Assembly: GCF_014641635.1 (NCBI RefSeq)
Contig: NZ_BMIC01000002.1
Span: 124,001-188,000 of the forward strand
Reading direction: 5' to 3'
Source of the DNA: Aquaticitalea lipolytica
GTDB taxonomy: Bacteria > Bacteroidota > Bacteroidia > Flavobacteriales > Flavobacteriaceae
DNA length: 64,000 nt
Below the pieces are notes generated by a model, which saw only the letters and a list, made by a program, of their open reading frames with translations, searched no databases and was not told where the DNA came from. A program made the position numbers and the translations under genes. Of this stretch, positions 2,257-47,097 are shown piece after piece; position 1 is the first letter of the stretch; each line of letters opens with the position of its first letter.

Positions 2257-3318
2257 ATGGCTGGAAATTCTTTCGGAAAATTATTTAATCTAACAACTTT
2301 TGGTGAATCTCATGGACCATCAATTGGTGGTGTTATTGATGGTTGCCCTTCAGGAATTATGTTAGATTTCGATGCCATACAAAATGAAATGAACCGTCGT
2401 AAACCTGGTCAGTCAGAAATTGTTACACAACGTAAAGAACCAGACACAGTAGAGTTTTTATCAGGGGTTTTTGAAGGCCAAACGACTGGTACACCAATTG
2501 GTTTTATAATTCATAATACCAATCAGAAATCAAACGATTACTCACACATAAAGGATGTATATCGTCCTAGTCATGCCGATTACACTTACGAAAAAAAATA
2601 TGGCATAAGAGATTACAGAGGAGGAGGACGCAGTTCTGCAAGAGAAACAGCTTGTAGAGTAGTTGCTGGAGCAATTGCTAAGCAAGTACTTAAAGACGTA
2701 AAAATTAATGCATTTACATCGTCTGTAGGTGATATTTTTATTAATAAGCCTTATCAAGAATTAGATTTTACTAAAATTGAAAGTAACGATGTACGTTGTC
2801 CAGACGAAGTTATCGCACAACAAATGATAGATAAAATAAAAGCTATCAGAAAAGAAGGCGATACAATTGGAGGTACAGTAACCTGTGTTATACAAAACGT
2901 ACCAATTGGATTAGGCGAGCCTGTTTTCGATAAGTTACATGCTGAGTTAGGCAAAGCAATGCTATCTATAAATGCGGTAAAAGGGTTTGAGTATGGTAGT
3001 GGATTTTGTGGCGCAAAAATGAAAGGAAGCGAACACAACGACCAATTTAATTCTGATGGTACAACAAAAACAAACCTGTCTGGAGGCATTCAAGGAGGAA
3101 TAAGCAACGGAATGGATATTTATTTTAGAGTCGCTTTTAAACCCGTTGCAACCATTATTCAGAAACAAAATACATTAGATAATAAAGGCAGTATCGTTGA
3201 AATGCAAGGCAAAGGTCGTCACGATCCATGCGTTGTACCTAGAGCAATACCAATTGTCGAAGCTATGGCAGCATTGGTGTTAGCAGATTTTTGGATGTTA
3301 AACAAATGCTATAAGTAG
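2257..3318 (+). CDS. aroC: Chorismate synthase
   Basis: A 353-residue protein with the chorismate synthase signatures: [19 protein letters not shown] at the N-terminus, the [14 protein letters not shown] segment, [12 protein letters not shown], and a C-terminal [20 protein letters not shown]. The enzyme converts 5-enolpyruvylshikimate-3-phosphate to chorismate, the last shared step of aromatic amino acid synthesis, and needs reduced FMN. Length is typical of the family. It stands alone here without other aro genes, as is usual in flavobacteria. The ATG at 2257 gives the expected family N-terminus. Two short hairpins lie just after the stop. Confidence 0.97.
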
Positions 3319-3341
3319 CTTATTCCTGCTTTCAGCTTAAT

Positions 3342-3404
3342 CTTTTGTAAAACAAAAGGATATCGCTTCAATCAGGGCTAAAATAAATTCTCAATACTTG
3401 AGAA
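3342..3404. other. Two small hairpins between aroC and the symporter gene
   Basis: Perfect 7-bp inverted repeats lie at 3342-3348/3352-3358 (CTTTTGT-aaa-ACAAAAG) and at 3388-3394/3398-3404 (TTCTCAA-tac-TTGAGAA). Neither is followed by a long T run, so termination is only a possibility. The second is 20 bases upstream of the symporter ATG and could affect its mRNA. Confidence 0.35.
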
Positions 3405-5028: not shown

Positions 5029-7128
5029 TTATAAATTAACTCGCTTATACTTAGGGTATTTTACTGCATAAGAGAATTTATAGGTTTTTATGCTACCAGA
5101 AATTAATTTTACTTTCCATTCCATAATGCCTTTTTCACTATCATAGTTAGAAGTTCCAGTTTCTATATCTTCAATTTTTATATCTCTATTTTGGCTTATA
5201 GGAATTCTATCAAATAACACTAAATCAATATCAGATTGTTTTGTGTTTTTTACTTCAATTTCATAAGCTTTATTTACAATTTTATTACTGCCAATATATT
5301 GGTTCTTTTTAAAATCGTTAAGCTCATTTCGTTTAATAACCACATTTGGGTCAACACCTAAAGATACTGTTAAACTATCTGTAGTTGCTAACGGATTAAT
5401 ATTAGTTTTACCAGAATAGCTTCCTTCAAAATACACATTAGCTTCAGCAGGTAATAAATTGTACTGTTCCCAATTACCAATTTTAGCAGTTAAAAACACA
5501 TTTTCATTTAATACTGGAGCAGCAAAATAAGCGTAGCTTGCAGGCACTGAATAGTTTTCAATTTCAATAACTGTTACATCACCATCAGTTGGAATGCTAT
5601 ATTGTTTTTTAATCTCAAAACGTGTATTTGTAATACCTTGTTCAATAACATCGCCTTTTGATGTGTAATTTCCTTTCTTGGTCGTTATTAACACCACACC
5701 ATTTGAGCCTCTAGCTCCATACATTGCTATTGATGAAGCATCTTTTAGTACATCTACAGATTCAACATTATTTGGGTCTATATTATTGATTTGATATTCA
5801 TCTGATAATATTCCGTCTACTACATATAGAGGTTGATTACCAGAAGCAATAGTGCCAATACCTCTTATTTTAATAAAAGAAGCACTTCCTCCTGTTGAAT
5901 TTTCAATACTCTCACTTGTTACAGTAGTTAAAGATGAAGTAATTTGTTTCTTAGAAGTTGTGCCATACGCTGTAACAACAACTTCGTCTAACTGGCTTGC
6001 ATCTTCATCTAAACTCACATTCATTATGCTAGAGTGAATTGGTAAGGTTTCACTATTCATTCCTATAAATGAATACACAAGTTCATTTCCTCCATTTAGC
6101 TGCAGTGAGTACTTACCATCGAAGTCTGTTTGAGTACCATTTGTTGTGCCCTTTACAATTACATTAACGCCTGGAAGTGGTAAACCACTTGCATCTAACA
6201 CAAGCCCTGAAACGTTTTGAACCATTGGATTATATTTGTAGTTATAGCTTTTTGTTGCTCTATTACCATAAGCTGAATTATAACTAACAAAATTTAAATA
6301 TTTTGGGCTTACATCTGGCTTTAAGTTATTGGTATTAGGATCGCTTGTAGATAGCGTTAATTTAATGTTATCCCAATTATTACCAGTACTTTGGTACACA
6401 TGTGCCTTATAAGTTAATTGTAAAGGTGCATTTATTTTTTCTGCTTTTAAATCATAAATTGGAAACCAACCAGCATTTTTAACATTATATTTTATTACTA
6501 AGTCTAAGCTTACTGCAGTAGCAGTATTTAATTTTACTTTTATTTCACCTGTTTGCACTTTTTCGCTAACATTAAGTTCAGTTAGTTGTTTTTTTATTTC
6601 TGAAATCTCTTTTTGATAGATAGTTTTTTTCTTTTCAGAAGCATAAATTAAATTTTTGATTTCTGTAATACGTGTTCTGTAATATTCTGTAAACTGCTTA
6701 AGTCTTTCGAGATTTACAACTTGACTATCATTTCCTAAATGTCTGTTGCTCTGTATTAGATTAAGTTCTTCGTTGTATCCTGATATTAAATCGTCTTCAA
6801 ACTGTATTTTATCTACAAAAGTCTTTATCGAATTTTGAAAAGCTTCTACATCGATAGTTTGATCTTGTTTTGCTAAATAATTTATACCATAATTAATTGA
6901 AAGAATAGACGCGTTTTTTAATCCTGAAATTTGAATACTATTTTCTTGAATATAAGGAGAAAGCTTATTGAATGTAAACTCGGTTGTGCCAACAGGAAGT
7001 TTAATTGTTGTTGTTCGTGTTATTTGAGCTCCACTCAAATACACTGTAACATTGTCTATTTTTGATGGTGTATTATTTGCAAAGCTTAGCGATGCTAATA
7101 ATAAAAATGAAAGTAGTAAAGTCTTCAT
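5029..7128 (-). CDS. MuiA-family (DUF4140/DUF4139) protein with inserted CarboxypepD-like and TonB-plug domains
   Basis: A 699-residue exported protein. Residues 1-18 are a signal peptide ending ASLSFA. Residues about 22-125 resemble DUF4140, followed by a coiled-coil stretch (about 90-190) and the first part of DUF4139 (about 200-290). The DUF4139 body is then interrupted: about 305-375 is a CarboxypepD-regulatory-like repeat (GLVLDASGLPLPGVNVIVKG, FDGKYSLQL), and about 395-485 is a TonB-dependent receptor plug (IRGIGTIASGNQPLYVVDG, NNVESVDVLKDASS, YGARGSNGVVLITTKKG). DUF4139 resumes from about 495 to the end. No receptor barrel follows the plug. Family members are often called mucoidy inhibitor A, but their molecular role is not settled. 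The protein is probably periplasmic or outer-membrane associated. It is monocistronic, and upstream (7129-7520) is non-coding. Confidence 0.85.
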   Translation of the reverse strand: MKTLLLSFLLLASLSFANNTPSKIDNVTVYLSGAQITRTTTIKLPVGTTEFTFNKLSPYIQENSIQISGLKNASILSINYGINYLAKQDQTIDVEAFQNSIKTFVDKIQFEDDLISGYNEELNLIQSNRHLGNDSQVVNLERLKQFTEYYRTRITEIKNLIYASEKKKTIYQKEISEIKKQLTELNVSEKVQTGEIKVKLNTATAVSLDLVIKYNVKNAGWFPIYDLKAEKINAPLQLTYKAHVYQSTGNNWDNIKLTLSTSDPNTNNLKPDVSPKYLNFVSYNSAYGNRATKSYNYKYNPMVQNVSGLVLDASGLPLPGVNVIVKGTTNGTQTDFDGKYSLQLNGGNELVYSFIGMNSETLPIHSSIMNVSLDEDASQLDEVVVTAYGTTSKKQITSSLTTVTSESIENSTGGSASFIKIRGIGTIASGNQPLYVVDGILSDEYQINNIDPNNVESVDVLKDASSIAMYGARGSNGVVLITTKKGNYTSKGDVIEQGITNTRFEIKKQYSIPTDGDVTVIEIENYSVPASYAYFAAPVLNENVFLTAKIGNWEQYNLLPAEANVYFEGSYSGKTNINPLATTDSLTVSLGVDPNVVIKRNELNDFKKNQYIGSNKIVNKAYEIEVKNTKQSDIDLVLFDRIPISQNRDIKIEDIETGTSNYDSEKGIMEWKVKLISGSIKTYKFSYAVKYPKYKRVNL

Positions 7129-7472
7129 AAAGTGTTGATTTTTAAATTCTTTATAAAACTATATTTACCTGTCTTGAAATAAAACTTAACTTGAGTGAAG
7201 TATGATAGTTAGTTAGTGAAGTACACTTATGACTTAGTTAATATTTTAATTATACAAAAAATGCAACTCATAGAGTTTTTGTGCATTTTTACTTTTTTAA
7301 TCAAATATTTTAAGGCGTTTAACGAGAATTTTATGCCTCAGCATAATCTTTAATTACATTTACAATAGTAAACTAATATGCTATTAATCAAACAAATAAT
7401 TCCCTCATTAATTAGCAAATTAACTTGTTTTTGAGGTTAAATTAGTTTTTAAGTTTAGTTGTTAAATGTTAG
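7129..7472. other. Intergenic stretch with a bulged hairpin, no gene supported
   Basis: Upstream region of the MuiA-like gene. A bulged hairpin lies at about 7259-7292 (AAAAATGCA … TGCATTTTT with an inner ACTC-ata-GAGT stem), followed by T-rich DNA on the plus strand. A 30-codon plus-strand frame at 7261-7353 overlaps that hairpin and has nothing to support it. A small RNA between this hairpin and the terminator at 7473 is possible but unproven. Confidence 0.3.
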
Positions 7473-7502
7473 AAAAGCTCTTCGTGCCGAAGAGCTTTTT
7501 TA
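7473..7502. terminator. Rho-independent terminator downstream of the DCC gene
   Basis: Perfect 12-bp arms AAAAGCTCTTCG (7473-7484) and CGAAGAGCTTTT (7488-7499) with a 3-base loop, ending in a T run on the plus strand and a shorter one on the minus strand. It serves the minus-strand MutS2-DCC unit and could also stop plus-strand transcripts. Confidence 0.8.
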
Positions 7503-7520
7503 TGTTTTATAGGAATCTAA

Positions 7521-7934
7521 TTATAGAAATTTTGACTTCAAATCTGGAGTAGGTATCATACACTCTTCTTTTTTACCATACCATTTGTAACGATTTTTTG
7601 CAATATAATCATAAACCCAATTTCTGATAATAGTTGGGATAATTAAAAATACGCTCAACAGATTGCGAGGAAACCCAAGTTTTGATGCAATTTTTAAAGC
7701 TGCTGTAGATTTATACGAAATACCATGCTCATTAGAGTAGAGTATTATAGAATCTATTTTATTAGTATCTATATTAAACTCCTTGATTATTTGTTGGCCA
7801 ACTTCACTTTGTAACGCTGTAAAGAGAAATGCATTGTTTTTATCGTGCTTAATAATATATTGAACCGAAGCGTCACAAAGATTGCAAACGCCATCAAAAA
7901 GCACTAGTTGTTTATGTTTTGGTAATTGTATCAT
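7521..7934 (-). CDS. DCC-family thiol-disulfide oxidoreductase-like protein (DUF393)
   Basis: A 137-residue protein with the family signature near the N-terminus, LVLFDGVCNLCDASVQYI, holding the DxxCxxC motif that names the DCC family (thioredoxin-like fold, predicted thiol redox). A hydrophobic segment around residues 90-110 (LLSVFLIIPTIIRNWVYDYI) is usual in the family. It overlaps the upstream mutS2 stop by 4 bases, so the two are likely co-translated. The cellular role of the family is not established. A strong hairpin terminator follows. Confidence 0.85.
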   Translation of the reverse strand: MIQLPKHKQLVLFDGVCNLCDASVQYIIKHDKNNAFLFTALQSEVGQQIIKEFNIDTNKIDSIILYSNEHGISYKSTAALKIASKLGFPRNLLSVFLIIPTIIRNWVYDYIAKNRYKWYGKKEECMIPTPDLKSKFL

Positions 7935-10114
7935 TTTACAGCTTCTACAAGTTCTAACTGATCAACACCAACATTAGTCGTAAACATTCCATAATTAATA
8001 ACAGCTTTGTTTTTTTCAAGTTTATCAATACTTCCTACAGCTCTACCATCTTGCAATCGAACTCTATCGCCAACTTTAAATATTGGTTTAGGTTTAGGTG
8101 TAGCATCTACTTTTTTCTTAGCTGCTTTCTTTTTCTGGCGAATAACTTCCACTGTTTTTTCAGCTTCTTTAATAACCTTTTTTTCTTTCGCTTTCTGAAT
8201 TTGCTTTTGTTTAACTGACACCTTTTTTCGTTTCGAATTCTCTATTTGAACTAATTTAAACAATTCATCCATTAATTCTCGCTTCTTCTTGTTGTCAAAA
8301 TACTTTTCAGACAAATCATTCAATTTTTGTCCTAAATAAATCAAGCGTTGATTGCTATCATACAACTCTTGGTAGCTTTCTAGTTTCTTTTGAATTTTGG
8401 CGTTTATTTCTTCTAGCTTTTCAGCTTCCGATTGTGTTTTTCTCTCGTTTAGCTTTAATGACTGCTCTGTTTTTTCAAGTTTACTACGCTCTTTTTGAAG
8501 TTTAGCAATAGTAGCATCAAATCGGATTTTGCCTCGCTCAATTTTCTTTTTTGCTCTATTAATTAAGCTGTAAGGAATTCCGTTTTTTTGAGCAACTTCA
8601 AAAGTAAACGAGCTTCCTGCTTGCCCTAAAGCCAATTTATACATTGGTTCGAGACTTTTTTCATCAAAAAGCATATTTGCATTTTGCATAAAAGGTAACT
8701 CGTTAGCTAATATTTTAAGATTAGAATAATGTGTTGTTATAATACCAAAAGCTTCTCGATGATAAAACTCTTCTAAAAATGTTTCAGCTAAAGCGCCTCC
8801 TAATTCAGGATCACTTCCTGTACCAAATTCATCAATCAAGAACAAAGTATTCTTGTTGCATTTTTTCAAGAAATAATTCATCTGTTTTAATCGATAACTA
8901 TAAGTGCTTAAATGATTTTCAATAGATTGGTTGTCACCAATATCGCTTAAAATTCTGTCAAACAAACAAATATTACTTCTTTCATGCACAGGAATCAACA
9001 AACCACTTTGTAGCATGACTTGAAGCAAACCTACTGTTTTTAGTGTTATACTTTTTCCTCCTGCATTTGGGCCAGAAATAACAATTATTCGATTATCTGA
9101 ATGCAATTCTATAGATTGAGGATATGTTTTTAATTTCTTTTTCTGATTAGAAACATAAAGTAAAGGATGATATGCATTTTTTAACACATAAACCTTATCG
9201 TTATTAATTTCTGGCAAAATACCATTAATTGCATTCGCATATTTTGCTTTCGCAGAAATAACATCAATATCTGTTAGAAAAGCTTGATACTGCTCTAAAA
9301 GCGAAACATAAGGTCTTACAAACTCTGTTAATTGTTTTAATATTCGAGTAACTTCTTCTTGCTCATCAAACTCTAAATTATTGAGTTCTCGAGTATAACG
9401 AAATGTAGTTTCTGGCTCAATATAAACGATACTTCCTGTTTTACTACCTCCTAAAATAGCACCTTTAACTTTGCGACGATACATTGCCTTTACAGCTAAA
9501 ACACGTTTGTTATCTACAACAGATTCTCTAATATCATCTAAATAATCTAAGGCACTATAGGTGCTTAAAGCCGAAGCAAAACTTTGATTTATTTTCCCCT
9601 TTATAACATTTATGCTTTGCCTTAAGGATAACAACTCATTTGATGCATTATCTTTTACATCTCCAAAGCGATCAATAATAGCATCTATTTGTTCAATCAA
9701 TACTTTTGTGACTTGTATTGATGATGAAAACTGTGATAAAGTAGGGTAGTACTCTTCAAACTTTTTTAAGAAGACAATAATTTCGTTACAATTTTGTGAA
9801 ATGGAAGCAATCTTCTTAAAACTTGAAGTCTCTAAAAACGAATTCTCAATTTTTAAATACTGAATTTCTTTAGTAATAGGCTCAAAACCATGATTTGGTA
9901 TTCTATTTTCGTTATGTAAAGACGCTAAATATTCATTAGTATAATGTAAAGCTTCAACAACCATTTCTTTTGACGAATATGGCAAAACGGATAGTGTTTT
10001 TTCTTTACCTAATGCAGTAATACAGTATTCAGACACTTGGCCTAATACTTTATAAAACTCAATATCTTGTAATGTTTTTTCGTGAATGTTAATCATCCTT
10101 TGAATTCCTGTCAT
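7931..10114 (-). CDS. mutS2: MutS2-type ATPase without an Smr domain
   Basis: A 727-residue member of the MutS2 branch. The N-terminal two-fifths are the helical core and clamp. The MutS ATPase follows, with Walker A GPNAGGKSITL, Walker B FLIDEFGTGSDPELGG and a His-containing switch (ITTHYSNL). A long Lys/Glu-rich coiled coil and a small beta domain (VGDRVRLQDGRAVGSIDKLE) complete it. Classical MutS2 proteins end in an Smr endonuclease domain; this one stops just after the beta domain, as many Bacteroidota homologues do. MutS2 proteins act on recombination intermediates and, in some species, on collided ribosomes. Two ATGs fit: 10114 and the seventh codon at 10096 (MINIHEKTLQDIEF), and the second gives the more usual family start. 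Confidence 0.88.
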   Translation of the reverse strand: MTGIQRMINIHEKTLQDIEFYKVLGQVSEYCITALGKEKTLSVLPYSSKEMVVEALHYTNEYLASLHNENRIPNHGFEPITKEIQYLKIENSFLETSSFKKIASISQNCNEIIVFLKKFEEYYPTLSQFSSSIQVTKVLIEQIDAIIDRFGDVKDNASNELLSLRQSINVIKGKINQSFASALSTYSALDYLDDIRESVVDNKRVLAVKAMYRRKVKGAILGGSKTGSIVYIEPETTFRYTRELNNLEFDEQEEVTRILKQLTEFVRPYVSLLEQYQAFLTDIDVISAKAKYANAINGILPEINNDKVYVLKNAYHPLLYVSNQKKKLKTYPQSIELHSDNRIIVISGPNAGGKSITLKTVGLLQVMLQSGLLIPVHERSNICLFDRILSDIGDNQSIENHLSTYSYRLKQMNYFLKKCNKNTLFLIDEFGTGSDPELGGALAETFLEEFYHREAFGIITTHYSNLKILANELPFMQNANMLFDEKSLEPMYKLALGQAGSSFTFEVAQKNGIPYSLINRAKKKIERGKIRFDATIAKLQKERSKLEKTEQSLKLNERKTQSEAEKLEEINAKIQKKLESYQELYDSNQRLIYLGQKLNDLSEKYFDNKKKRELMDELFKLVQIENSKRKKVSVKQKQIQKAKEKKVIKEAEKTVEVIRQKKKAAKKKVDATPKPKPIFKVGDRVRLQDGRAVGSIDKLEKNKAVINYGMFTTNVGVDQLELVEAVK

Positions 10115-36241: not shown

Positions 36242-37196
<955 letters not shown>

Positions 37197-40100
37197 TTAA
37201 AATCTATTCGGCATAATAAATTTTCTCATTCTTTCAGATTCAGCGCTTCTGTATTGCTCTTGAATCTTACTCTTTATGTAATCCTTAATAGGAATAATGG
37301 CTAATTTATCATGAAACCTATCAACGTTTTCGAGAAGATTTGTCCATTTTTTTGCATAAAGTTCTCCCCAAATTACTTCTCCTGATTGAACTCCTGCATT
37401 TCCTATCCAGTCAATATTTTTAAAGAAATCTAAACCAGAATTTACACTTAAAAAATTATGAAATAATTCTTCATACTTTTCAACCATACACTCTCTTATA
37501 GTATCAAATATTATTTGAATGCTCTTACTTTCGAATGCATTTTTAGTGATAAAATCTTTGATAAAAATATAAGCGTTTTGTTTTTGTTCATCGCTTTTCA
37601 GATTATGAAATAATGCCGAAACAGAATGTTCAACAAATCCAAAATATAGCTCTTTTCCAATTAATAAGTCTATTATTTCCTCAATATTGGAATAGTCTTT
37701 AGAATTATCCCAAATGAATGATATTTCAAGCCCTTTAATATCTCCATGCACATCATATTTTGTGTAAAAATGAGAGAAAAAATCAAAAAGAAATTTAGGG
37801 TACTTACTATAAATATTTTTGAATCCAGTTTTTTGATAATCAAAAGACAACCCTGATTTACCTAACTCAAATTGTTGAAAATAAGATTTTTTTAAAAGGT
37901 CATAATCTTCTTTAAAAATATTTAAATTATCAGTGAACGGATAGTCGGAATAGGTTATTCTAATTGATTCGTTTTCAATCTTCAAAAAAATAATATTGAT
38001 TACTTTTTTTAGAAAATCTTCATCTATAACATTAAATTTCGATAACTGATCTAAATATATATAGCTCGGTTTATTTATACCTTGTATTGTGTCTAAAGCC
38101 TCATTATAATAATACTCATCAATATGTTCATTAGGTAATCTCACTAATGAATCTATTTTCCAATGATTACTATATTCATTGTTCCATTTTTTTAGCAGTT
38201 TCCAGAGTGATAAAGACCATTTCTTTGATGTATTATTTATTGTAAATAATGTTTTATATAAGGTTCTTATATTATAGTTTTTATCTAAATATTGCTCGAG
38301 TAAATCGAATCCAACTTCATTATTATTAATAAAATTTTCAGAAATAATTATGTCAATTGAGTTTTCAATTTGTGAATTACTTACCTCACTAACTTTTAGA
38401 ACATTTTCAATCGAATCAAAAAAAGAATTAAAATTTTCATTACTTGAAAAAGTGAAATGTTCCTTTAAATTTTCTGTTTTTAGTTCCTCATATTTTCTCC
38501 AATCAGTATAGTCATATTCATCTTTATCTCTCAATCTATTCCAGTCAATTCTTCTAAAGTTTCTATATTCAAGTGTATCAAATTTTGGTTTTAGTTTTTG
38601 GTATGACAAATTTGTAATACCTTTTTCACGATTTAATGAATTTATAAGTTCATTAACTACAAAGGTTTCTTTAAATGATTTTGGAGAAAAATATTCAGAA
38701 ATAAATGGAACTAATAAAGTTAAATCAAAATCAATTATTTTAGGATTTCTATTTCTATATTCAGGTTTATATTCATTTATAACTTTCACAACTTCACTTC
38801 TACTTTCTTTAAAGCAGTAGAAAAGAGTTTCCCAGATATTCTTTCGAATTTCTCTAATTTCTTCACTATCTGTAATTGGATAATCATAAATTGTAATTGA
38901 ATTTTTTCTGCCACCATGAGTTATATGAAATGAGTGTTTTAAAAAAGTCTTTGCTAATTCAATGAAAGCTACAGAATAATGATAAAAACCTTCTTCAATT
39001 TTTACTTTCAATAAATTTATAAACGTTGACTGTCTTTTGTAAGCGTAATTTTCATCAGGTTCATCAAACAATAAAGTTTCTCTAATTCTTCTAACAAATT
39101 CAGGTAAATGTTCAGGTTTCTTCCTAACATATTCAAATCCTAATTCAATTGACGGTATAAAAGAATCACTAAAATTTCTAAAAAAACGTGATAAATAATC
39201 TATAGTTAATTCTCTATTATGAACAAAATCATTTCTTTCATAAAAGGCAGAGTATCTTGGGTTTTTAGGTTCGTCAATTAAGTTTATTTTATTTAGGAAG
39301 TATGCTAAAGTTGCATCAGGTTTATAGAACCAAAAAACATCTAAAAATTCTAATAATTTTGAATGATCACCTTTATTTACACCAATATATTTATCAATTA
39401 CAGGATTAATTTTAGACAAAACCTTTTCATAACCGAACGAATTATTTGCAGGGATAATACTATCTTTAATATTATATTTATGTGTTTCGAAATAATTAAA
39501 TAGAAGAGTTTCAAATGATAATAATCCATCTCTAATGAAAACAATATAAAAGAAATATGTAGCCATTACCTGTTCTGAAATACGAATGTGATTATATTGA
39601 ATCTCTACAAGTTCCTTTTGATGCAATTGTTCAATTGCTTCATTGAATTTATAATAATCCAAATTGAAGTCTAATAAGATTTTATTGATAAAACTTCTAT
39701 TTTCTCTATCAATTGTGAAAAAGAATGAAACAAGAGCTAAAGAATTTAGTAAATCTTTATTAGAAAATAAATCAAAATCAATTGCATAACTTTTGAAATA
39801 AGATTCAAACAAGTCTCCAACATCACCAAGTAAAAATTCTATTTGTTTTTCTAAAGCTAACCGAGCTCCCATTATAGCAAGACGAGCATTTCCATCTGCA
39901 ATTTGAACAATCTTTTTTTGATATTTACTGTTTTTTATTTTGAATGAATCGCTTTCTAATATTTCAATTATTTCTTCATCAGAAAACTTTGGAATATCTA
40001 TTGTTTCATAATTAAAATCATGACATAAATTGTAAATATCTGATAAGGCATAATTTCTAACAGTTATAACTAACTTTAAGTTCCCTTTTTTCTTTGATTT

Positions 40101-40955
40101 AAAAAAACCAAAAATTTGAGATAAGTTTGGCAATTGTCTATTAGCATCATCAATCAAAAGAATATAGTTTTTATCTTCTTTCAATTGAATTTTTAGATCT
40201 TCATAAATATCAACATCTTTTTTTGCAATTACATAAGATATATATGAAGGGTTTTTTTCTTTAAAAACATTAATTGCTTGTATTCCAATCTTTGTTTTGC
40301 CAACGCCTGCTACTCCAGATAATATTAATAAATTGTTAGAGGTTAATATAGATTGAATACTCTCAAGTTCTTTTTGTCTATGAAAAAACAAATTATCAAG
40401 TGGTGTAGATAATTGATTAGCTCTATTGTTATACTCACTTATGAACGTTTCAAAAGGCAATATTTGTCCTGTGTCTAAAGACATTTCAAGGAAATCTCTT
40501 GCTAATGAATAATATTTAGATAGAATATCTAAAGCTATTGTATCAATACCTATTAATTCAATATTTATCTCTTTTTCTGATGCATACGTTTGTAACGATG
40601 TCTCTTCGGATACTTTAAGTCGACTATTAAAACATACTATTATTTTATTAATTTTACTTAATTCAACACCAGTTTTAGATTCATCCAAACACTTGTCAAT
40701 ATCGTCTTTTATTTTTGTGACTATTGATGTCGCTTGTGTTGTATATTCAATATATGCTAATTTATTGCCTGATATTCTCATAAATGAATCTGGAGTGCCG
40801 ATTATTGTTTTTAGTTTTCCTAATTGACTTCCAGTACGATTCAAACTTGAATATTCATTCTCTCTCATAGTCAAGTATGTGTCACAAAGATTTTGAAACC
40901 CAGCTCCATCAATAGCTAATAGCTTTTGTTCTATTAATTGTAAACGTCCTGACAT
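37197..40955 (-). CDS. STAND-type P-loop NTPase with N-terminal nuclease-like domain
   Basis: A 1252-residue protein in three parts. Residues 1-165 resemble a restriction-endonuclease-like fold: Gly18/Phe20, then Gly53-Thr-Pro55-Asp56 and, one strand later, Glu70-Tyr-Thr72, close to a PD-(D/E)xK active site but with Thr at the Lys position. Residues about 185-370 are a STAND/AAA NTPase: Walker A SGVAGVGKT (213-221), Walker B ILLIDDA (Asp269/Asp270), an arginine-containing VITVRN (sensor), and a winged-helix-like segment after it. Residues about 390-1252 form a long helical, solenoid-like region with no recognised repeats, the usual place for a ligand sensor. This layout is that of Avs-like immune NTPases. 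The gene is divergent from a CHAT protease across 85 bases. Family assignment below the STAND level is inference. Confidence 0.75.
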   Translation of the reverse strand: MSGRLQLIEQKLLAIDGAGFQNLCDTYLTMRENEYSSLNRTGSQLGKLKTIIGTPDSFMRISGNKLAYIEYTTQATSIVTKIKDDIDKCLDESKTGVELSKINKIIVCFNSRLKVSEETSLQTYASEKEINIELIGIDTIALDILSKYYSLARDFLEMSLDTGQILPFETFISEYNNRANQLSTPLDNLFFHRQKELESIQSILTSNNLLILSGVAGVGKTKIGIQAINVFKEKNPSYISYVIAKKDVDIYEDLKIQLKEDKNYILLIDDANRQLPNLSQIFGFFKSKKKGNLKLVITVRNYALSDIYNLCHDFNYETIDIPKFSDEEIIEILESDSFKIKNSKYQKKIVQIADGNARLAIMGARLALEKQIEFLLGDVGDLFESYFKSYAIDFDLFSNKDLLNSLALVSFFFTIDRENRSFINKILLDFNLDYYKFNEAIEQLHQKELVEIQYNHIRISEQVMATYFFYIVFIRDGLLSFETLLFNYFETHKYNIKDSIIPANNSFGYEKVLSKINPVIDKYIGVNKGDHSKLLEFLDVFWFYKPDATLAYFLNKINLIDEPKNPRYSAFYERNDFVHNRELTIDYLSRFFRNFSDSFIPSIELGFEYVRKKPEHLPEFVRRIRETLLFDEPDENYAYKRQSTFINLLKVKIEEGFYHYSVAFIELAKTFLKHSFHITHGGRKNSITIYDYPITDSEEIREIRKNIWETLFYCFKESRSEVVKVINEYKPEYRNRNPKIIDFDLTLLVPFISEYFSPKSFKETFVVNELINSLNREKGITNLSYQKLKPKFDTLEYRNFRRIDWNRLRDKDEYDYTDWRKYEELKTENLKEHFTFSSNENFNSFFDSIENVLKVSEVSNSQIENSIDIIISENFINNNEVGFDLLEQYLDKNYNIRTLYKTLFTINNTSKKWSLSLWKLLKKWNNEYSNHWKIDSLVRLPNEHIDEYYYNEALDTIQGINKPSYIYLDQLSKFNVIDEDFLKKVINIIFLKIENESIRITYSDYPFTDNLNIFKEDYDLLKKSYFQQFELGKSGLSFDYQKTGFKNIYSKYPKFLFDFFSHFYTKYDVHGDIKGLEISFIWDNSKDYSNIEEIIDLLIGKELYFGFVEHSVSALFHNLKSDEQKQNAYIFIKDFITKNAFESKSIQIIFDTIRECMVEKYEELFHNFLSVNSGLDFFKNIDWIGNAGVQSGEVIWGELYAKKWTNLLENVDRFHDKLAIIPIKDYIKSKIQEQYRSAESERMRKFIMPNRF

Positions 40956-41040
40956 ATTTTTCTATATTTTTTAGATTAAAAAATTATTTTTTAAAAATCT
41001 TTCGGAATGCATTTATATATTTATAAATAATCTAATAATA
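40956..41040. promoter_or_regulatory. Divergent AT-rich promoter region of the STAND/CHAT pair
   Basis: These 85 bases between the two start codons must hold both promoters. They are extremely AT-rich with partial symmetry (AAAAAATTATTTTTTAAAAA). I could not assign -33/-7 boxes with confidence. Confidence 0.45.
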
Positions 41041-42897
41041 ATGAAAATACCAGATTTTAATAAAGAATTTTTTTGCATCGCAAATGTCGATGAACCAGTA
41101 TTATCTGCGATAGTTTCGAGTTATGTTTCCAAGAAAGGTTTCTACACTCCAATGTTCGAGTTTTATTCTGTTACATCAGCTGATTCCAATAAATCTGATT
41201 CAGAAATTGATGAACATCACTTAACAAGAAGTAGAGCTCGTCAATTCAATATAAAAATAGGAAATACAATTAGAAGATTAAGAGGTTGTGATAATATTTT
41301 ATTAATAGGTTTAACAGAAAATCAACAAAGCTATTTGAAATTTCCAAAAGATTATAATGTAATTGAAATTAATGACATCAATGATGTTACATTTGTCTTG
41401 GGTTCAATGGTTGATAAGAGTAATATTTTAAGCTGTAAAGAAAGTCAAATTTATGAAGGTCTTGTTCAAGCCTTATCAAGTGATTCTATTTTGCATATCG
41501 ATTTTAAAGCAGATGATATTGTTCCTTATTTAAATAATGAAGGAGGCATTGTTGTGGTTGAAAATGTTGATAAGGTTGGTGTTGTCATTGCAATAAATTA
41601 TGGCATATCAATTAGTGCCAATGTTTTAATAACAAGTTCTTTAAAAATCGATAAAAGAAAAATATCAGCCTTTATTGAAGAGTGGAAAGATGGAAATCAA
41701 AATTCATATAATGATTTGAGTTCTTTTATTTATCCAAAAGTTGAAGATGTCAAGTTTGAAAATTATGATTTCGCAACATTTTTTACGGAAGGAGCTCCTT
41801 ATTCACTTATTCTAAAAAATGTTATACCCATCTCACACGTGCATCTTCATTTAAATCCAGATTTTTTTATATTTAATAATCTGTATTTTGAGGATTCCCA
41901 AACTCCATATTCTGCATTAGTTTTTTCTCCTTTAGAGTTTAAAGATGAAGAAACGAATTTTGTAATAGATGAACTCACAAAAAAGGGTTATTATGTAAAA
42001 GAGTTAGTTGGTGAAAATGCAACATCTCACAATATAAATTATCATGTAAGAGAATACCCTTTTAACTTATTACATATCTGTAGTCATGGTGGAGAAGTTG
42101 ATGGTTACAGCGTTAAACATAAATTTATTGATAGTAATGGCGATGAACATATCATAGAATATGATGAAGTAGTAAGCTTTGCTCCATCAAGATTAGAAGA
42201 AAAAATTCCTGTAACTTCTAAAAAGATTTGGAAAAAATTCGATGGTTATAAATGGAGAAGTGAAGAATTAAAAGCTATTGGATATCCACAGTATGTTTAT
42301 ACAGATATGCTCAATTCGACAAGAAACATTGATAAGAAAGAAAGGAAACCTAAAAAGAATATTCCATATTCGTGTGCTATTAAATGTTCAGATTTTAATT
42401 ATCAAGCAATGTTTCATCATTTAGCATCGTCACATTCTCCATTAATTTTTAATAACACTTGTTGGTCTTGGTCTGATATAGCAGATTCATTCATATCTGT
42501 TGGTTCAAAAGGATACATTGGAACGCTATGGAATATTAATAATAACATAGCTGTAAAGTCAGCAGAAGTCTTTTATAAAAATTTATTTAATTCCACTATA
42601 CTTGAAGCATTTAATAAATCAATTAAAGAAACAACTGGAAGTAAAGATGAAAATATATATATATTTTGGGGTTTGCATTTTAGTTCATTTAAGCAGGTTG
42701 CAGATGTTCAAATGTCAAAAAACACTGTTGTTGTAAAACTTTTAAAATCAATAGAGATTTGGAAAGAAAAATTGGATAAAACAACCGATAAACCTATGCG
42801 AGAAGAAATAGAGAGAATAATTAAATGGATTTCTAACCAATTATCAAAAAATTTCACTGAAGAAATAATTGATATATTGGGTAATGGTAAATCATAA
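41041..42897 (+). CDS. CHAT-domain cysteine protease
   Basis: A 618-residue protein. The C-terminal half is a CHAT (caspase-HetF-associated) domain, about residues 285-560. The catalytic His is His349 in NLLHICSHGGE and the catalytic Cys is Cys474 in IFNNTCWSWSDIA, followed by the typical GSKGYIGTLWNINNNIAV. The N-terminal 280 residues match nothing I recognise and could be a sensor or partner-binding domain. About 60 helical residues follow the CHAT fold. CHAT proteases are caspase-like and in known bacterial immune loci are switched on by a partner. Here the candidate partner is the divergent STAND NTPase. No gasdermin-like gene is visible. A 167-base repeat begins right at its stop. Confidence 0.85.
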   Translation: MKIPDFNKEFFCIANVDEPVLSAIVSSYVSKKGFYTPMFEFYSVTSADSNKSDSEIDEHHLTRSRARQFNIKIGNTIRRLRGCDNILLIGLTENQQSYLKFPKDYNVIEINDINDVTFVLGSMVDKSNILSCKESQIYEGLVQALSSDSILHIDFKADDIVPYLNNEGGIVVVENVDKVGVVIAINYGISISANVLITSSLKIDKRKISAFIEEWKDGNQNSYNDLSSFIYPKVEDVKFENYDFATFFTEGAPYSLILKNVIPISHVHLHLNPDFFIFNNLYFEDSQTPYSALVFSPLEFKDEETNFVIDELTKKGYYVKELVGENATSHNINYHVREYPFNLLHICSHGGEVDGYSVKHKFIDSNGDEHIIEYDEVVSFAPSRLEEKIPVTSKKIWKKFDGYKWRSEELKAIGYPQYVYTDMLNSTRNIDKKERKPKKNIPYSCAIKCSDFNYQAMFHHLASSHSPLIFNNTCWSWSDIADSFISVGSKGYIGTLWNINNNIAVKSAEVFYKNLFNSTILEAFNKSIKETTGSKDENIYIFWGLHFSSFKQVADVQMSKNTVVVKLLKSIEIWKEKLDKTTDKPMREEIERIIKWISNQLSKNFTEEIIDILGNGKS

Positions 42898-43062
42898 GCC
42901 ATTCCACACATATTATGCTTCCCTCCTATGTCGTCGCATAAAAAGTGTTCCATTAACATTGTGAAAACAACTTTTGTCAAGAAAAAAATAAAGAAAATGA
43001 TGTTTTAAACTTTCGCTTTTAACCAAAGCTCAAGTTACATAACGCGGAACATTATAGTACAA
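42896..43062 (+). repeat. Long direct repeat, copy 1
   Basis: About 167 bases, closely similar to 46914-47082. Shared landmarks are AAGCCATT.CACACA at the start, GTGTTCCATTAACAT, the hairpin AACTT-tc-GCTTT…AAAGC-tc-AAGTT, and the end GTTACATAACGC.GAACAT followed by ATAGTACAA. It starts at the CHAT stop codon and ends 33 bases before the SDR stop. Confidence 0.8.
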
Positions 43063-43095
43063 TATATAACAATATGATAATAGCACAATGTGGTG

Positions 43096-43905
43096 CTATT
43101 TTATATAGTTGCTTATTATTGCTTCTGTTAAAGTTAGTAATGATTTAATTTTATCAGCATCATAAGCATTTGGATGTGCATTAGAAAACATTCCTCTATC
43201 GTTGTCAAAATAAGTTCCTGATTGATTTTTATTCCGTTCTGACATTGCTAAATCATACAAAATATCAACACCTTTCTCTGCAGGAGACCAATGTTGACCG
43301 TAAGCTTCGTTTGCCATTTTAGTATTTAAAAGTGAGCCAGGATTTACAGCAATAGTAGTAATATTAGGATGCTCTTGAGCAAATTTAAAAGACCACATGG
43401 TTAATGCTAACTTACTTTGAGCGTAACTTTCGCTTGCATTAACTGTAGCGTCGCCAGTTAACACATCTTTTTGAACGGTAGATTGTGCTGCCGAACTTAA
43501 GTTTATAATTCTCGCATTTGTTCCTTTATCTAAAACCGATACAATGTTATCTGTTAAAACTACAGGTGCAAAATAATTTACAGCCATTCTGATGTCTAAT
43601 CCTGCTTTAGTTTTATCTGTTGGACTTTTATATATGCCAGCATTATTTATAAGAATGTCTAATTTAGGCACTTCATTTTTTATTAGACCTGCTAATTGCT
43701 TTACTGCTTTTATATCTGAAAAATCTGTAACAAAACCTTTGATATTCTTATTGTTTGAGACTTCTTTTAATTCTGAAACAACAGTATTTAGTTTTGCTTC
43801 ATTCCTACCATGCAGATATACATGATGCCCTTCTTTAGCTAATTTTAAAGCAGTTAATTTTCCTATTCCGTCTGTACTCCCTGTTATTAATATATGTTTA
43901 TTCAT
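43096..43905 (-). CDS. Short-chain dehydrogenase/reductase
   Basis: A 269-residue SDR. It has the cofactor motif TGSTDGIGKLTALKLA (TGxxxGIG), DILINNAGIYK, a Ser in NLSSAAQS, and the catalytic YAQSK (YxxxK). The substrate is unknown, and the enzyme resembles retinol/WW-domain-oxidoreductase-like SDRs. It is the last gene of the module bracketed by the two long repeats. A palindromic repeat separates it from the upstream oxygenase gene, so it may have its own promoter. Confidence 0.9.
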   Translation of the reverse strand: MNKHILITGSTDGIGKLTALKLAKEGHHVYLHGRNEAKLNTVVSELKEVSNNKNIKGFVTDFSDIKAVKQLAGLIKNEVPKLDILINNAGIYKSPTDKTKAGLDIRMAVNYFAPVVLTDNIVSVLDKGTNARIINLSSAAQSTVQKDVLTGDATVNASESYAQSKLALTMWSFKFAQEHPNITTIAVNPGSLLNTKMANEAYGQHWSPAEKGVDILYDLAMSERNKNQSGTYFDNDRGMFSNAHPNAYDADKIKSLLTLTEAIISNYIK

Positions 43906-43942
43906 TTTGCTTTTCTTATTTGTGTTCAGTTTTACTTTTAAC

Positions 43943-44000
43943 TGTCACCTTGAGCGCAGTCGAAAGGTTTTGAATAGTTATCGGCTGCACTCGAAATGAT
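43943..44000. repeat. REP-like palindromic repeat (GAGCGCAGTCGAA type)
   Basis: The left arm TCACCTTGAGCGCAGTCGA and the reverse complement of the right arm (ATCATTTCGAGTGCAGCCGA) pair imperfectly around an AT-rich loop. From memory, sequences of the form CATTTCGAGTGCAGTCGA are widespread intergenic palindromes in flavobacteria. It fills the SDR/oxygenase gap. Confidence 0.7.
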
Positions 44001-44042
44001 ATTATGCTTTTACTGCAATTTATTCAAAAGTTTTTATTCTGT

Positions 44043-45005
44043 TTAAAACGGTGCAATCATATCTTTAGGTTCATCTGGTAAACTCCAACGTTGGTGTGCT
44101 GTAACATTTTCTAATGCAACATCTTTGATGGTGTTACTACTGATGTTTCCGTAACTATTTGTGCTACCACGTGGAATTTGCATATGATCGCCATACAGCC
44201 AAACCACTAAATTACTGCGTTGTCCGCTAGTAATTGGATGTGTTGCATGTGGCACATTACCTCTGTGAATAATGGCTTTACCAGGCTCAAACTTTGTTTG
44301 TACCGTTTTTCCTGACGCTTTATCATAAAAATCAACTACAGAACCTGTAAATGCTTCATCGGGTAAATTAATGTTGATATTTAAGGTAGCAGCCGAAGCA
44401 TCTGTATGCGCATGTAAATCCTTGTCCTTATCTGGATTGTACTGAATTGAAAACCCAAAGGTTTGGTTGTCATAGCCATAAGTACCTAATAACAATCGTG
44501 CAATCGGACGCATATATTTGTCCATAATAGCGTTGTAAAATGCCTGAAAATTAGGTGCTGCCAGATGTCCTTCAGAGCGAGGATCGAGCATCATTCCATA
44601 ACGGTTTAATTGAATACCGTAAGGTGCACGTTTTGGAATTTCTGAATTTACAGCATCTTCTAGATAATTACGAAAATCGGCTAAACGCTCTAAATCAAAA
44701 AACTGTGTTTCATAAACACCTGGAATAATTTCTTTCCATAAATCGGCAACAGCGTTTTCTTTTTCTGGGTTTTCCCAAGCGTCGTTAATCGCTTGTCGCA
44801 AACCAGGATCAAGTAAGGTTTCGTCTGGGATTAGTAAATTGTTTTTATTTTCTATTTCCCACTCAGCCCAAGCTTCTTCTAATAATTTTCGTTTATCATT
44901 CCAAAATTTAGAAACTGACGGTTCACGTCTTAATGAAGCTTCACGAGATGGAACTTCTAGAGCACGAGCTTCTGCTAATGCATTTGTATTTGTTATTGTT
45001 TTCAT
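44043..45005 (-). CDS. Fe(II)/2-oxoglutarate-dependent oxygenase
   Basis: A 320-residue protein with an iron-binding HxD in DLHAHTDASAATLNIN, a double-stranded beta-helix core (GSVVDFYDKASG), and the distal His/Arg region GNVPHATHPITSGQRSNLVV. This matches P4H-like 2OG oxygenases. The substrate is unknown. It begins 16 bases after the enoyl-CoA hydratase-like gene, so the two form an operon, probably under the neighbouring AraC regulator. Confidence 0.82.
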   Translation of the reverse strand: MKTITNTNALAEARALEVPSREASLRREPSVSKFWNDKRKLLEEAWAEWEIENKNNLLIPDETLLDPGLRQAINDAWENPEKENAVADLWKEIIPGVYETQFFDLERLADFRNYLEDAVNSEIPKRAPYGIQLNRYGMMLDPRSEGHLAAPNFQAFYNAIMDKYMRPIARLLLGTYGYDNQTFGFSIQYNPDKDKDLHAHTDASAATLNININLPDEAFTGSVVDFYDKASGKTVQTKFEPGKAIIHRGNVPHATHPITSGQRSNLVVWLYGDHMQIPRGSTNSYGNISSNTIKDVALENVTAHQRWSLPDEPKDMIAPF

Positions 45006-45021
45006 AATTTCTACTATATTT

Positions 45022-45870
45022 TTATAATTGAATCTCTTGCAAATCCATTAGCATAGATTCCCAATTCTTTTGGTTGTTATGGTCGAATTGCGCACCATTT
45101 TCATCTGCAATTGTAAAACGCTTAATAGCTGGTGTTTTACTGGTTGCTTGAAATAACTGGTAAGCTTCTTCTTTTAAAGCGTCTTTAATTGGTAAATCGA
45201 TAGAGGCATAAACAGCACGTTTACAAGCTTCGATAGATTCTGCTGGGAATTTAGAAATACGTTCTGCTAAAGCATCAACATAAGATCCAATCTCGTCAGC
45301 ATCTAATGCTTTATTGATCGTTCCGAATTTTTCAGCTTCGTCTGCATCCCAATCTCTTGCTCCCAAAATAATTTCTAACGCTTTACCTAGTCCTGCTTGT
45401 CTTGCCATACGAGACGCTCCACCTCCACAAGGTAAAATTCCCATACCAACTTCCATTTGCATGAATTTGGCTTTTCCTCTTGCTGCAAATCTCATGTCTA
45501 ATGCTAATGCCATTTCGTGTCCTCCACCACGTGCAAAACCTTCAATTTTTGCTATGGTTGCTTGTGGCACATTACTTAATCGTTCTAAAACCGATTGTAG
45601 GTCCAATAGCTGCACTTCATTTCTTGGCACAGCTTCTGTAGACATGTCTCTAAGTAAATTAGTATCGTAATGACAAACCCAATACCCAGGATTTGATGAT
45701 TGAAAAACGACCACTTTTACACTTCTATCGCGCTCTAAACGTAAACACAAACTGCTTAAGTCTGCTAACATTTCTTGGCCTTGTACGTTTACTGGTCCGA
45801 AGTTGATATCAACCGTTAAAATTGCTCCGTTTTGTTTTGCTGTAAATGTTTGAAAATTTTTGTAATCCAT
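45022..45870 (-). CDS. Enoyl-CoA hydratase/isomerase family protein
   Basis: A 282-residue crotonase-fold protein: KIEGFARGGGHEMALALDM forms the oxyanion hole, with QMEVGMGILPCGGGASRMAR and LGARDWDADEAEKFGTINK following. The acidic pair of classical hydratases is not clearly conserved, so the reaction could be isomerisation or hydrolysis and need not involve CoA fatty acids. It is the first gene of the operon with the 2OG oxygenase. Two 21-bp-spaced repeats in its upstream region look like AraC operators. Confidence 0.85.
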   Translation of the reverse strand: MDYKNFQTFTAKQNGAILTVDINFGPVNVQGQEMLADLSSLCLRLERDRSVKVVVFQSSNPGYWVCHYDTNLLRDMSTEAVPRNEVQLLDLQSVLERLSNVPQATIAKIEGFARGGGHEMALALDMRFAARGKAKFMQMEVGMGILPCGGGASRMARQAGLGKALEIILGARDWDADEAEKFGTINKALDADEIGSYVDALAERISKFPAESIEACKRAVYASIDLPIKDALKEEAYQLFQATSKTPAIKRFTIADENGAQFDHNNQKNWESMLMDLQEIQL

Positions 45871-45950
45871 GATTTCTAATGTTTTAATTAATACTGTTTT
45901 TTTTGTTATGTTTTAATTACAGTACAAACTTACCTCAGAGATCAAGGTGT

Positions 45951-45985
45951 TTTTTGGTAGAAAACAATGTGTTATTGGTAAAAAA
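45951..45985 (-). promoter_or_regulatory. Putative AraC operator: direct repeats 21 bp apart
   Basis: TTTTTGGTAGAAAA (45951-45964) and TATTGGTAAAAAA (about 45973-45985) repeat the core TTGGTA(A/G)AAA with the GGTA elements exactly 21 bases apart, two helix turns. The site is 81-115 bases upstream of the hydratase-like gene and next to an AraC gene. AraC proteins carry two helix-turn-helix units and bind such repeats. Confidence 0.5.
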
Positions 45986-46004
45986 TAAGGTTTGTAGTAA
46001 AAAC

Positions 46005-46886
46005 CTAGGCTAAATTGGCTTTATAGACACTTAAACTTATGCCTTTATATGCTTTAAAAGTTTTATTTAAGTGGCTAGAATCTGTAAAACCAAGCTCTAT
46101 AGCAATTTCAGAATCTTGTGCATCTGTATACTTTAATCGTGTTTCTACTAACTTCAATTTATAATTAATGATGTATTTCTTTAAAGACACATCTGTGTGT
46201 TTTTTAAAATACTCACTGATGTAATTGTCTGCCATATGAAATTCTTCAGCTAGACTTTTAGTAGTTAATACTTCAGCATTATAAATATTAGAATGAATAA
46301 AATTTATGATTTGCTGTATTTTTGAAGATTTTACCTCTTTAATAGTTTCAACATTTATATACTGAATATTTCTGGCTATTAAATGAAGAATTACAGATAA
46401 AGAATTTTGAATGATGAAAATATCATTGGATAGTTTATTTAGATATTCAGTAGTTACCATATTTACTAAAGACACCAAATGTGCTCTGTCTGAAGTGGTT
46501 TCAAATTGCATCTCACGTAGTTGATGACTTTCGCTATTTAAAATTTCTTCGATTTTTCGAAACCAATCATTAACAGGAAGAGTTGCGTTATGGGAAGAGG
46601 TATTTCTAAAAAAACTCTTTAAAAACTTAATAGCTGTTACTGTTGTCGGTGTTTCAGCTTGTATAATATAAATGTCATCAGGAATAAATACAAAAATACT
46701 ATTGTCCTTATAAGGCACTGTCTTGCTATTAATTTTTATAGTTCCTTTACCCTTTTCTATATAAACAATTTCGAAAAAACGTATTGTCGTGTATTGACAA
46801 AATGTAAAAAATGTTTCGTCCTTATACTTCTGAATTACGATATTTTCGATAATGGTTCTTGGCACAGCATAAATATATGTAAACAA
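46005..46886 (-). CDS. AraC-family transcriptional regulator
   Basis: A 293-residue regulator. The N-terminal 150 residues include a cupin-like segment (YKDNSIFVFIPDDIYII) for ligand sensing. The C-terminal 100 residues are the AraC double HTH: LTTKSLAEEFHMADNYISEY, then KYIINYKLKLVETRLKYT and IAIELGFTDSSHLNKTFKAY. The start must be non-ATG: the frame opens at TTG 46884-46886 with an in-frame stop two codons upstream, and the next ATG is far inside. It probably regulates the downstream hydratase/oxygenase operon. A long direct repeat begins 27 bases upstream. Confidence 0.9.
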   Translation of the reverse strand: MFTYIYAVPRTIIENIVIQKYKDETFFTFCQYTTIRFFEIVYIEKGKGTIKINSKTVPYKDNSIFVFIPDDIYIIQAETPTTVTAIKFLKSFFRNTSSHNATLPVNDWFRKIEEILNSESHQLREMQFETTSDRAHLVSLVNMVTTEYLNKLSNDIFIIQNSLSVILHLIARNIQYINVETIKEVKSSKIQQIINFIHSNIYNAEVLTTKSLAEEFHMADNYISEYFKKHTDVSLKKYIINYKLKLVETRLKYTDAQDSEIAIELGFTDSSHLNKTFKAYKGISLSVYKANLA

Positions 46887-46913
46887 AATTTAAACTTGAA
46901 TGTTTTATAAAAG

Positions 46914-47082
46914 AAGCCATTTCACACACATTCCACTACGCTCCTATTGTCGCTTCGTAAAAAGAGTGTTCCATTAACATCGTAGAGAAACATTTGTCTA
47001 GAAAAAAATAGAGAAAACTGTGTGTTAAACTTTCGCTTTTTACCAAAGCTCAAGTTACATAACGCAGAACATGATAGTACAA
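46914..47082 (+). repeat. Long direct repeat, copy 2
   Basis: About 169 bases in the same orientation as copy 1 (42896-43062), with the same landmarks and the same hairpin AACTT-tc-GCTTT…AAAGC-tc-AAGTT. It fills the gap between the AraC gene start and the TPR regulator stop. The two copies bracket the SDR-oxygenase-hydratase-AraC module almost exactly. Confidence 0.8.
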
Positions 47083-47097
47083 TTGAAATAGCGACAT

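Follow-up and report, generated by a model that had tools for sequence, protein, structure and literature searches.

The genes for an Avs4-like NTPase and a CHAT-like protein of Aquaticitalea lipolytica lie beside the chromosomal dif site, at which dimers of the chromosome are resolved, and comparison of the surrounding sequence suggests, with a probability of roughly 0.72, that they are delivered by a Xer-exploiting integrative element (IMEX) at dif, one of a family whose cargo is often defence, with the NTPase acting as a putative sensor-effector. In the window, by which we mean the whole stretch of 64,000 nucleotides that was analysed, both open reading frames are present at the coordinates and on the strands given by the original prediction, which had described the gene pair and its 85-base divergent spacing correctly (40956-41040). 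Beyond that prediction, the surroundings of the pair, namely dif and the element, are new. The features are as follows, with the evidence in brackets:

36362..36389, minus strand: chromosomal dif site (11-6-11), bounding the element on one side (genome matches, GC skew)
36438..36464, plus strand: dif-like site A of the left end, inverted relative to dif, with a 5-base spacer (site search, left-end alignment, pairing with dif as single-stranded DNA, z -5.03)
36553..36581, plus strand: left-end dif-like site B, 7-base spacer (site search, left-end alignment)
37197..40955, minus strand: nSTAND3 NTPase, 1252 aa, Avs4-like, with a PD...ExT N-terminal domain (Pfam, alignment, fold comparison)
40956..41040, no strand: divergent intergenic region, 85 bases (ORF coordinates)
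41041..42897, plus strand: CHAT-like protein, 618 aa, with H349 and C474 conserved (Pfam, alignment)
42890..43062, minus strand: conserved right end, about 170 bases (alignment with the right ends of 11 other genomes, for L159 and L171 among them only close to the site)
43032..43062, minus strand: right-end dif-like site R, 9-base spacer, oriented as dif (site search, right-end alignment)
43063..47082, no strand: second segment, closed by another copy of the right end at 46989-47083 (right-end and site comparison)

The dif sequence was found once, with 0 mismatches, in each of 6 genomes and is present in 162 of 199 genomes of the family, one of which has two copies, while a reversed control matched in 4 of 199. 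On its own contig dif is located at 160,362, the cumulative GC-skew maximum lies at 161 kb, and a broken-line fit of the skew turns at 148 kb, a distance of 12 kb from dif. Location at the chromosomal dif, dif-like sites on the element and the lack of an integrase of its own are among the properties by which an IMEX is recognised, and these three were observed. The segment from dif (36362-36389) to the conserved end (43032-43062) measures about 6.7 kb, and the NTPase and CHAT genes are its only open reading frames of at least 100 codons.

The left and the right ends align between genomes well beyond the dif-like arms. As single-stranded DNA, dif and site A pair in all four cases tested (z -4.65 to -5.04, the sequences being those of the integrated form), and the right end alone folds no better than its shuffles (z -0.73). 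The same segment occurs at dif in Nonlabens and Lacinutrix, and the NTPase-CHAT module adjoins dif in the loci L001 and L002. G400, the only further genome from the same genus, is without the segment, the homology stopping at dif (window position 36392) and returning at 50574. These comparisons indicate that the element carrying the pair is probably mobile. The second segment (43063..47082), in which no left-end sites were found, is possibly a second stacked element; it contains a short-chain dehydrogenase match at 43096-43905. Searches with the right end returned no match in phage records and a single 31-base match in plasmids, and the left end matched Acinetobacter phage M02 and one Microviridae record at the dif letters, the two matches being 34 and 31 bases long. 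A tRNA-linked island was ruled out, there being no tRNA in the window, and so was an Rfam family at the element ends, the sole Rfam match in the window being Flavo-1 at 3318-3383.

Further dif loci were surveyed for additional sites. Extra canonical arm pairs beside dif were found in 15 of 40 further loci/genera, 34 sites in all, and every one of the 34 lies on the XerC-arm side of dif (order-2 Markov control: mean 0.1, maximum 2); 11 are right-type sites oriented as dif, and the 23 others are inverted. Loci that had not been selected at dif, 244 kb in total, contained no extra site, and neither did the remainder of 400 kb of the contig that holds the window. The 25 remaining dif loci have no extra canonical site, but because the stretches of L113 and L123 do not cover the XerC side, the fraction is strictly 15/38, and L112 and L164 cover only 1.2 and 3.7 kb of that side. 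The 40 loci are a non-random choice, picked by hand from the first rows of the 162 dif-bearing genomes with long contigs preferred, and the 34 sites leave out two noncanonical arm pairs (L115, L164). That chance or ordinary homologous recombination brought the segment to the terminus, the dif-like sites being decayed dif repeats with no role in movement, would agree with the many dif loci that have no extra site and with L005, where the NTPase alone adjoins dif and no recognisable element ends surround it. This explanation is nevertheless very improbable in view of the one-sided position of all 34 sites, their orientation fixed by type, and the conservation of the ends between genomes far past the arms.

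The sister elements at these loci carry CBASS (L121, L130, L171), AbiL-like (AbiLi in L122) and reverse-transcriptase-like genes. In PADLOC, 44 cargo proteins matched 141 families and 39 proteins across dif, on its other side, matched 7; this tally counts families rather than proteins, and 25 of the 141 cargo families are listed. The scan comprised the nine loci with a right-type site, leaving out six element-bearing loci without one; L169 yielded none, and L121 contributed 9 cargo against 4 control ORFs. No defence cargo was recognised by eye in L114, L154 and L157, and L156 holds three proteins without a PADLOC match. Taken together, we are inclined to favour the reading that this bacterial family, apparently the Flavobacteriaceae, carries a set of small elements with neither an integrase nor recognised phage genes; these would use the host Xer system, perhaps through single-stranded DNA hairpins, and would carry swappable anti-phage modules (CBASS, AbiL-like, reverse-transcriptase-like, Avs4-like NTPase with CHAT) stacked on the XerC side of dif, the replication terminus thereby forming a defence island of the family. 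Among the matches listed in the open-licence PMC literature, no paper concerned dif-borne defence elements in Flavobacteriaceae.

Several known elements resemble the one described here. Like the CTXphi-type IMEX, which use single-stranded DNA (PMC5357621), the present element sits at dif and has a pair of inverted dif-like sites close to one of its ends that may pair as single strands; unlike them, it has no recognised phage genes between its ends, and its sites keep both arms with a varying spacer (5, 7 and 9 in the window). The Microviridae proviruses of Bacteroidetes are likewise integrase-less and flanked by dif-like sites (PMC3091885), but as small viruses they have genes for capsid and replication. 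In Vibrio, elements with defence genes as cargo can sit at dif (PMC11630473); these are recognisable filamentous or tailless prophages, unlike the element in Aquaticitalea.

As expected of AVAST (Avs) systems, the 1252-aa protein contains a STAND NTPase core, and both Walker motifs, A and B, are present in it. Its residues 191-334 match nSTAND3 in Pfam (E 3.2e-9; 37.1 bits against a cut-off of 27.2), Walker A (G214, G217, G219, K220) and D269/D270 are invariant in 14 aligned NTPases, and the predicted long C-terminus is present. The PD...ExT motif (P55, D56, E70, T73) is also invariant in these 14 proteins, as are K47, K49 and K81. The catalytic D...ExK triad of a PD-(D/E)xK nuclease is incomplete: D56 and E70 are kept, and position 72, the usual site of the lysine, is T in 13 of the 14 and S in one. 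Because the catalytic lysine is thus absent from all 14, the nuclease output that had been predicted for the NTPase is doubtful, and a displaced catalytic lysine in the N-terminal domain is possible. NCBIfam has no name for either protein, and a sequence search of solved structures gave no match accepted as a relative of either.

In fold comparisons the model of residues 1-480 has Avs4 (AVAST type 4, PDB 8dgf) as its top Foldseek match (E 6.9e-12, 497 columns, TM-score 0.31 by query length), ahead of Avs5 (1.5e-7). In VIA, the SIR2-STAND protein Avs5 (PDB 9jap, 9nc9) comes first (Z 13.8, rmsd 7.4, 247 aligned; Z 13.4, rmsd 6.3, 239 aligned; NTPase residues 161-480) and Avs4 third (Z 12.7, rmsd 13.4, 219 aligned, model residues 67-323), where it is not outstanding because unrelated AAA+ proteins follow closely at Z 12.1. 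The Avs4 alignment begins at model residue 67, and residues 1-70 are poorly modelled (10-residue mean pLDDT 29-54). Avs5 has the same nSTAND3 core class, PF20720 being also reported for it (PMC12931631), but its N-terminus is SIR2 instead of PD...ExT; the NTPase differs from Avs4 in being 289 residues shorter than the 1541-residue Avs4 chain and in carrying T or S where the nuclease motif has lysine. We name it Avs4-like rather than Avs4 because none of the PADLOC 2.0.0 families, which include curated Avs profiles, matches it at E <= 1; the same holds for the CHAT protein. The latter is termed CHAT-like because its Pfam match (E 6.4e-5, 23.0 bits) falls just below the gathering cut-off of 24, and a CHAT-family scan of the own genome does not report it. 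Its His-Cys dyad is intact, with H349 and C474 invariant in 7 aligned proteins, in agreement with the original prediction, and its structure model is unusable (mean pLDDT 30.9).

The prediction that both genes form a joint nuclease-protease system is not supported as a rule. Homologues occurring mostly without the partner had been named beforehand as the observation that would speak against it, and this is largely what was found: 20 of 23 NTPase loci have no adjoining CHAT gene and 4 of 7 CHAT loci no adjoining NTPase, a partner being scored as absent when no ORF of at least 80 aa in the fetched stretch matched at phmmer E <= 1e-3. The 23 loci are not independent (L024/L025 and L020/L021 are near copies); the stretch of L003 ends 152 bases past the NTPase and that of L145 spans 10.5 kb. 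The count leaves out 9 of 13 Leptospira plasmid matches, a broken NTPase (G119) and a fragment (G1103), and G707, having the same contig number and CHAT start as the Lacinutrix genome G396, was not counted apart from it. That the two genes work as one coupled system, with a divergent promoter in common and two outputs, the NTPase detecting infection and either switching on the CHAT protease or being cleaved by it, is a reading that we hold only tentatively. It draws on the divergent arrangement of both genes, which recurs in three genera where the two form the bulk of one element, and on a protease that releases a nuclease in AVAST type 1 and caspases that act in other defence systems (PMC12799240). 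The three paired loci, on the other hand, may represent one event, being closely similar versions of a single module whose DNA is 84-85% identical to the window, and L030 and L147 share two other genes that follow the CHAT gene in place of the NTPase. Gated nuclease-protease pairs and caspase-nuclease (canu) loci likewise combine nuclease and protease in one defence locus (same source), but their nuclease is a separate pro-enzyme. Similarly doubtful is that the N-terminal domain serves in binding or as an adaptor while the CHAT protein, here, or another neighbour kills; the T or S in all 14 proteins would fit such a role, which the invariant P55, D56, E70 and three lysines and the mostly CHAT-free occurrence of the NTPase family argue against.

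Under the preferred reading of an IMEX at dif, the element would be moved by the host XerC and XerD as a member of a family with interchangeable cargo, often anti-phage defence. The C-terminal part of the NTPase would meet a phage protein, the NTPase would oligomerise via its nSTAND core, and the oligomer would turn on its own N-terminal nuclease-like domain. The CHAT protein would most likely be a second defence gene carried alongside, which the NTPase may or may not trigger. That both are phage-defence genes is probable: the predicted immune role is supported by association, with IetS- and Avs2-type genes adjoining NTPase relatives and CBASS in sister elements, and more weakly by the fold similarity to Avs4 and Avs5.

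If this is true, marine Bacteroidota possess a landing site, mapped and defined by its sequence, at which immune genes yet to be described accumulate, new systems could be read from the ends of the element rather than from homology to known systems, and immune-gene exchange would be tied to chromosome dimer resolution. This poses the question by what means elements in which no recombinase, replication or capsid gene was recognised pass from one genus to another, and the NTPase family gains a defence context from the setting of the pair. A search of viral contigs matched two loci with the NTPase alignment as query and nothing with the single NTPase sequence or either CHAT query. In plasmids CHAT had no match, and the NTPase family is present on Leptospira plasmids with 13 matches.

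Homology between the window and one other genome of the genus stops at position 36392 and restarts at 50574, and the break at 36392 is occupied by TTGTACTATAA-TTTATA-TTATGTAAAAT, which resembles the dif site of E. coli. It has a single match without mismatch in each of six genomes, the reversed control matching once (in G395), and it is found in 162 of 199 family genomes (one with two copies), a count that drops to 4 of 199 when the control is used. It lies at contig position 160,362, and the cumulative GC skew of the contig's first 400 kb is maximal at 161 kb, with a broken-line fit placing the turn at 148 kb. Since genome counts and GC-skew position agree, the sequence is read as dif, which has been predicted in 19/19 Bacteroidetes (PMC3025954). 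The features beside it are as follows:

36362-36389, dif
36438 and 36553, two left-end dif-like sites, inverted, adjoining dif
37197-40955, reverse strand, NTPase gene (1252 residues)
41041-42897, forward strand, CHAT gene (618 residues)
43032, right-end dif-like site with a 9-base spacer, in dif's orientation, beyond the CHAT gene

The two-gene module is common to the window, Nonlabens (L001) and Lacinutrix (L002), while most of their flanks differ, and in these three genomes and in Gillisia (L005) the distance from dif to the end of the NTPase gene is 0.36 to 0.81 kb; in Salegentibacter, dif and the NTPase gene are on separate contigs. The right-end site lies within a conserved end of ~170 bases, 95 bases of which are repeated at 46989-47083. 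A wider survey, with one dif locus from each of 40 other genera (764 kb in all), revealed extra canonical arm pairs in 15 loci, 34 in total, although the chosen coordinates leave L113 and L123 without the XerC side and two more loci contain little of it. Each of these 34 pairs is on dif's XerC-arm side (arm names were assigned by analogy with E. coli); the 11 right-type sites are all in dif's orientation and the other 23 are all inverted. An order-2 Markov control over all 40 loci gave a mean of 0.1 extra sites and a maximum of 2, and no extra site was found in 244 kb of loci picked independently of dif or elsewhere in 400 kb of the window's own contig. The aligned ends are alike far past the arms, except for the left end of L001 and the right ends of L159 and L171. 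As single-stranded DNA, dif pairs with the first inverted site in 4/4 cases tested (z -4.65 to -5.04), and no such pairing was seen at the right end (z -0.73). The pairing recalls CTXphi-type integration, where a pair of palindromic sites at a distance of 90 nt is reported to fold together (PMC5357621).

Place at dif, ends, polarity, conservation and cargo are shown by the data, and the pair is very probably (about 0.85) carried on an Xer-exploiting element, which would be moved by XerCD. Integrase-less proviruses at dif-like sites were already described from Bacteroidetes (PMC3091885), prophages at dif, as well as small-prophage defence loci, from Vibrio (PMC11630473), and an element with a dif-site mimic from Legionella (PMC9765430). 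No comparable Flavobacteriaceae family without recognised phage genes is among the literature matches listed. On the XerC side of dif in L121, L130 and L157, a right-type site is followed by a left-type site after 66, 313 and 135 bases, respectively, as if elements had been stacked in tandem. In the window, a second segment (43063-47082) ends in the right-end copy and contains a short-chain dehydrogenase, alongside further genes that by eye seem to be metabolic.

The sister elements carry an oligonucleotide cyclase with a patatin effector (L121), a TIR effector with a cyclase (L130), an AbiLi-type ATPase (L122), or a cyclase, E2 and 2TM effector (L171). Pooled, 44 cargo proteins match 141 PADLOC families (E <= 1e-8), with reverse-transcriptase models among the 25 listed, and 39 control proteins encoded on the opposite side of these dif sites match seven, six of them TIR- or SEFIR-type with one protein each. 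No integrase is among the 25 listed of 32 PHROG families matched by cargo, and two of these 25 bear tail-protein names. Speaking against defence as general cargo, no defence gene was recognised by eye in L114, L154 and L157. PADLOC likewise had no hit for three L156 proteins and for one encoded past the L159 element; according to Pfam, however, three of these four contain HATPase domains and the remaining one HD-CE. A 136-aa protein with similar opening letters is last in both CBASS-bearing cargos (L121:8810-9220, L130:8794-9204), with no Pfam match at E <= 0.01. Close to dif, where element ends were not recognised, L125 and L128 have methyltransferase-like genes (by eye) and L119 a caspase-type protein (5745-7988, PADLOC E 1.8e-16).

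Both reading frames lie where the original prediction had placed them, 85 bases apart. The STAND core proposed for the long protein is supported by an nSTAND3 domain at residues 191-334 (Pfam, E 3.2e-9, over cut-off) and by Walker residues that are invariant among 14 aligned long proteins with 24 to 86% identity to the window's. In the PD...ExT nuclease-like N-terminus, P55, D56, E70 and T73 are invariant in 14/14. Where the catalytic lysine would be expected, 13 proteins have T and the remaining one S; three lysines that do not vary (K47, K49, K81) might substitute for it. For residues 1-480, modelled at middling quality (mean pLDDT 60), Avs4 is closest by fold in Foldseek (E 6.9e-12), and VIA ranks Avs5 on top (Z 13.8), followed by Avs4 (12.7) and unrelated AAA+ proteins from 12.1 down. 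The NTPase is probably an Avs4-like sensor-effector, with predicted sensing and putative nuclease action. The CHAT match of the 618-aa protein falls just under the Pfam cut-off, and H349 and C474 are invariant in seven CHAT proteins; the six besides the window's own share 39 to 81% identity with it.

Functional coupling of the two proteins is a tentative reading. The CHAT gene adjoins the NTPase gene in the window, Nonlabens and Lacinutrix, 3 of the 23 NTPase loci examined. In the stretches retrieved around the remaining 20 no CHAT gene was found, nor was the NTPase found in those around 4/7 distinct CHAT loci (L030, L147, L148, L149). Salegentibacter has both genes, on separate contigs. The paired copies are 84-85% identical in DNA to the window across the module, so the pairing may, judged from sequence, reflect a single event. 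The CHAT gene is probably a second, CHAT-based defence gene along for the ride, its product having a putative protease role.

Together with its relatives, the long protein forms a family of ~1250-residue proteins, present in 8/395 sampled order genomes (E <= 1e-10) and 8/395 phylum genomes (profile search, E <= 1e-20), own genome counted in both of these partly overlapping samples, with further relatives on 13 Leptospira plasmids, in five named genomes and on two viral contigs. The gene is split into three pieces in Nonlabens and several in Gillisia, by decay or sequencing error; in the latter, at dif, an Avs2-type NTPase and a further ORF adjoin the broken gene (L005:3203-6878), possibly as one split gene. 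Another relative (L015:11864-15328) has as neighbours a divergent AAA ATPase and an S8 protease of the IetS type (PADLOC E 0), and similar-looking proteins (by eye) lie near relatives in L023 (16882-17967, 361 aa) and L152 (11839-12951, 370 aa). The CHAT protein was found by single-sequence search in 1/395 order genomes, its own, and by profile search in 5/397 family genomes, including its own and again Lacinutrix. In L030 and L147 the CHAT gene is followed by a shared pair of genes, for an 849-aa and a 358-aa or 356-aa protein, that of L030 matching Schlafen AlbA_2 (Pfam), which makes a candidate three-gene defence operon in two genomes (L030:8782-14292, L147:8985-14498). A further CHAT relative (L149:58-5360) lies near a candidate BREX-type island. 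Elsewhere in the window, a Flavo-1 RNA (RF01705) is found at 3318-3383 (62.1 bits).
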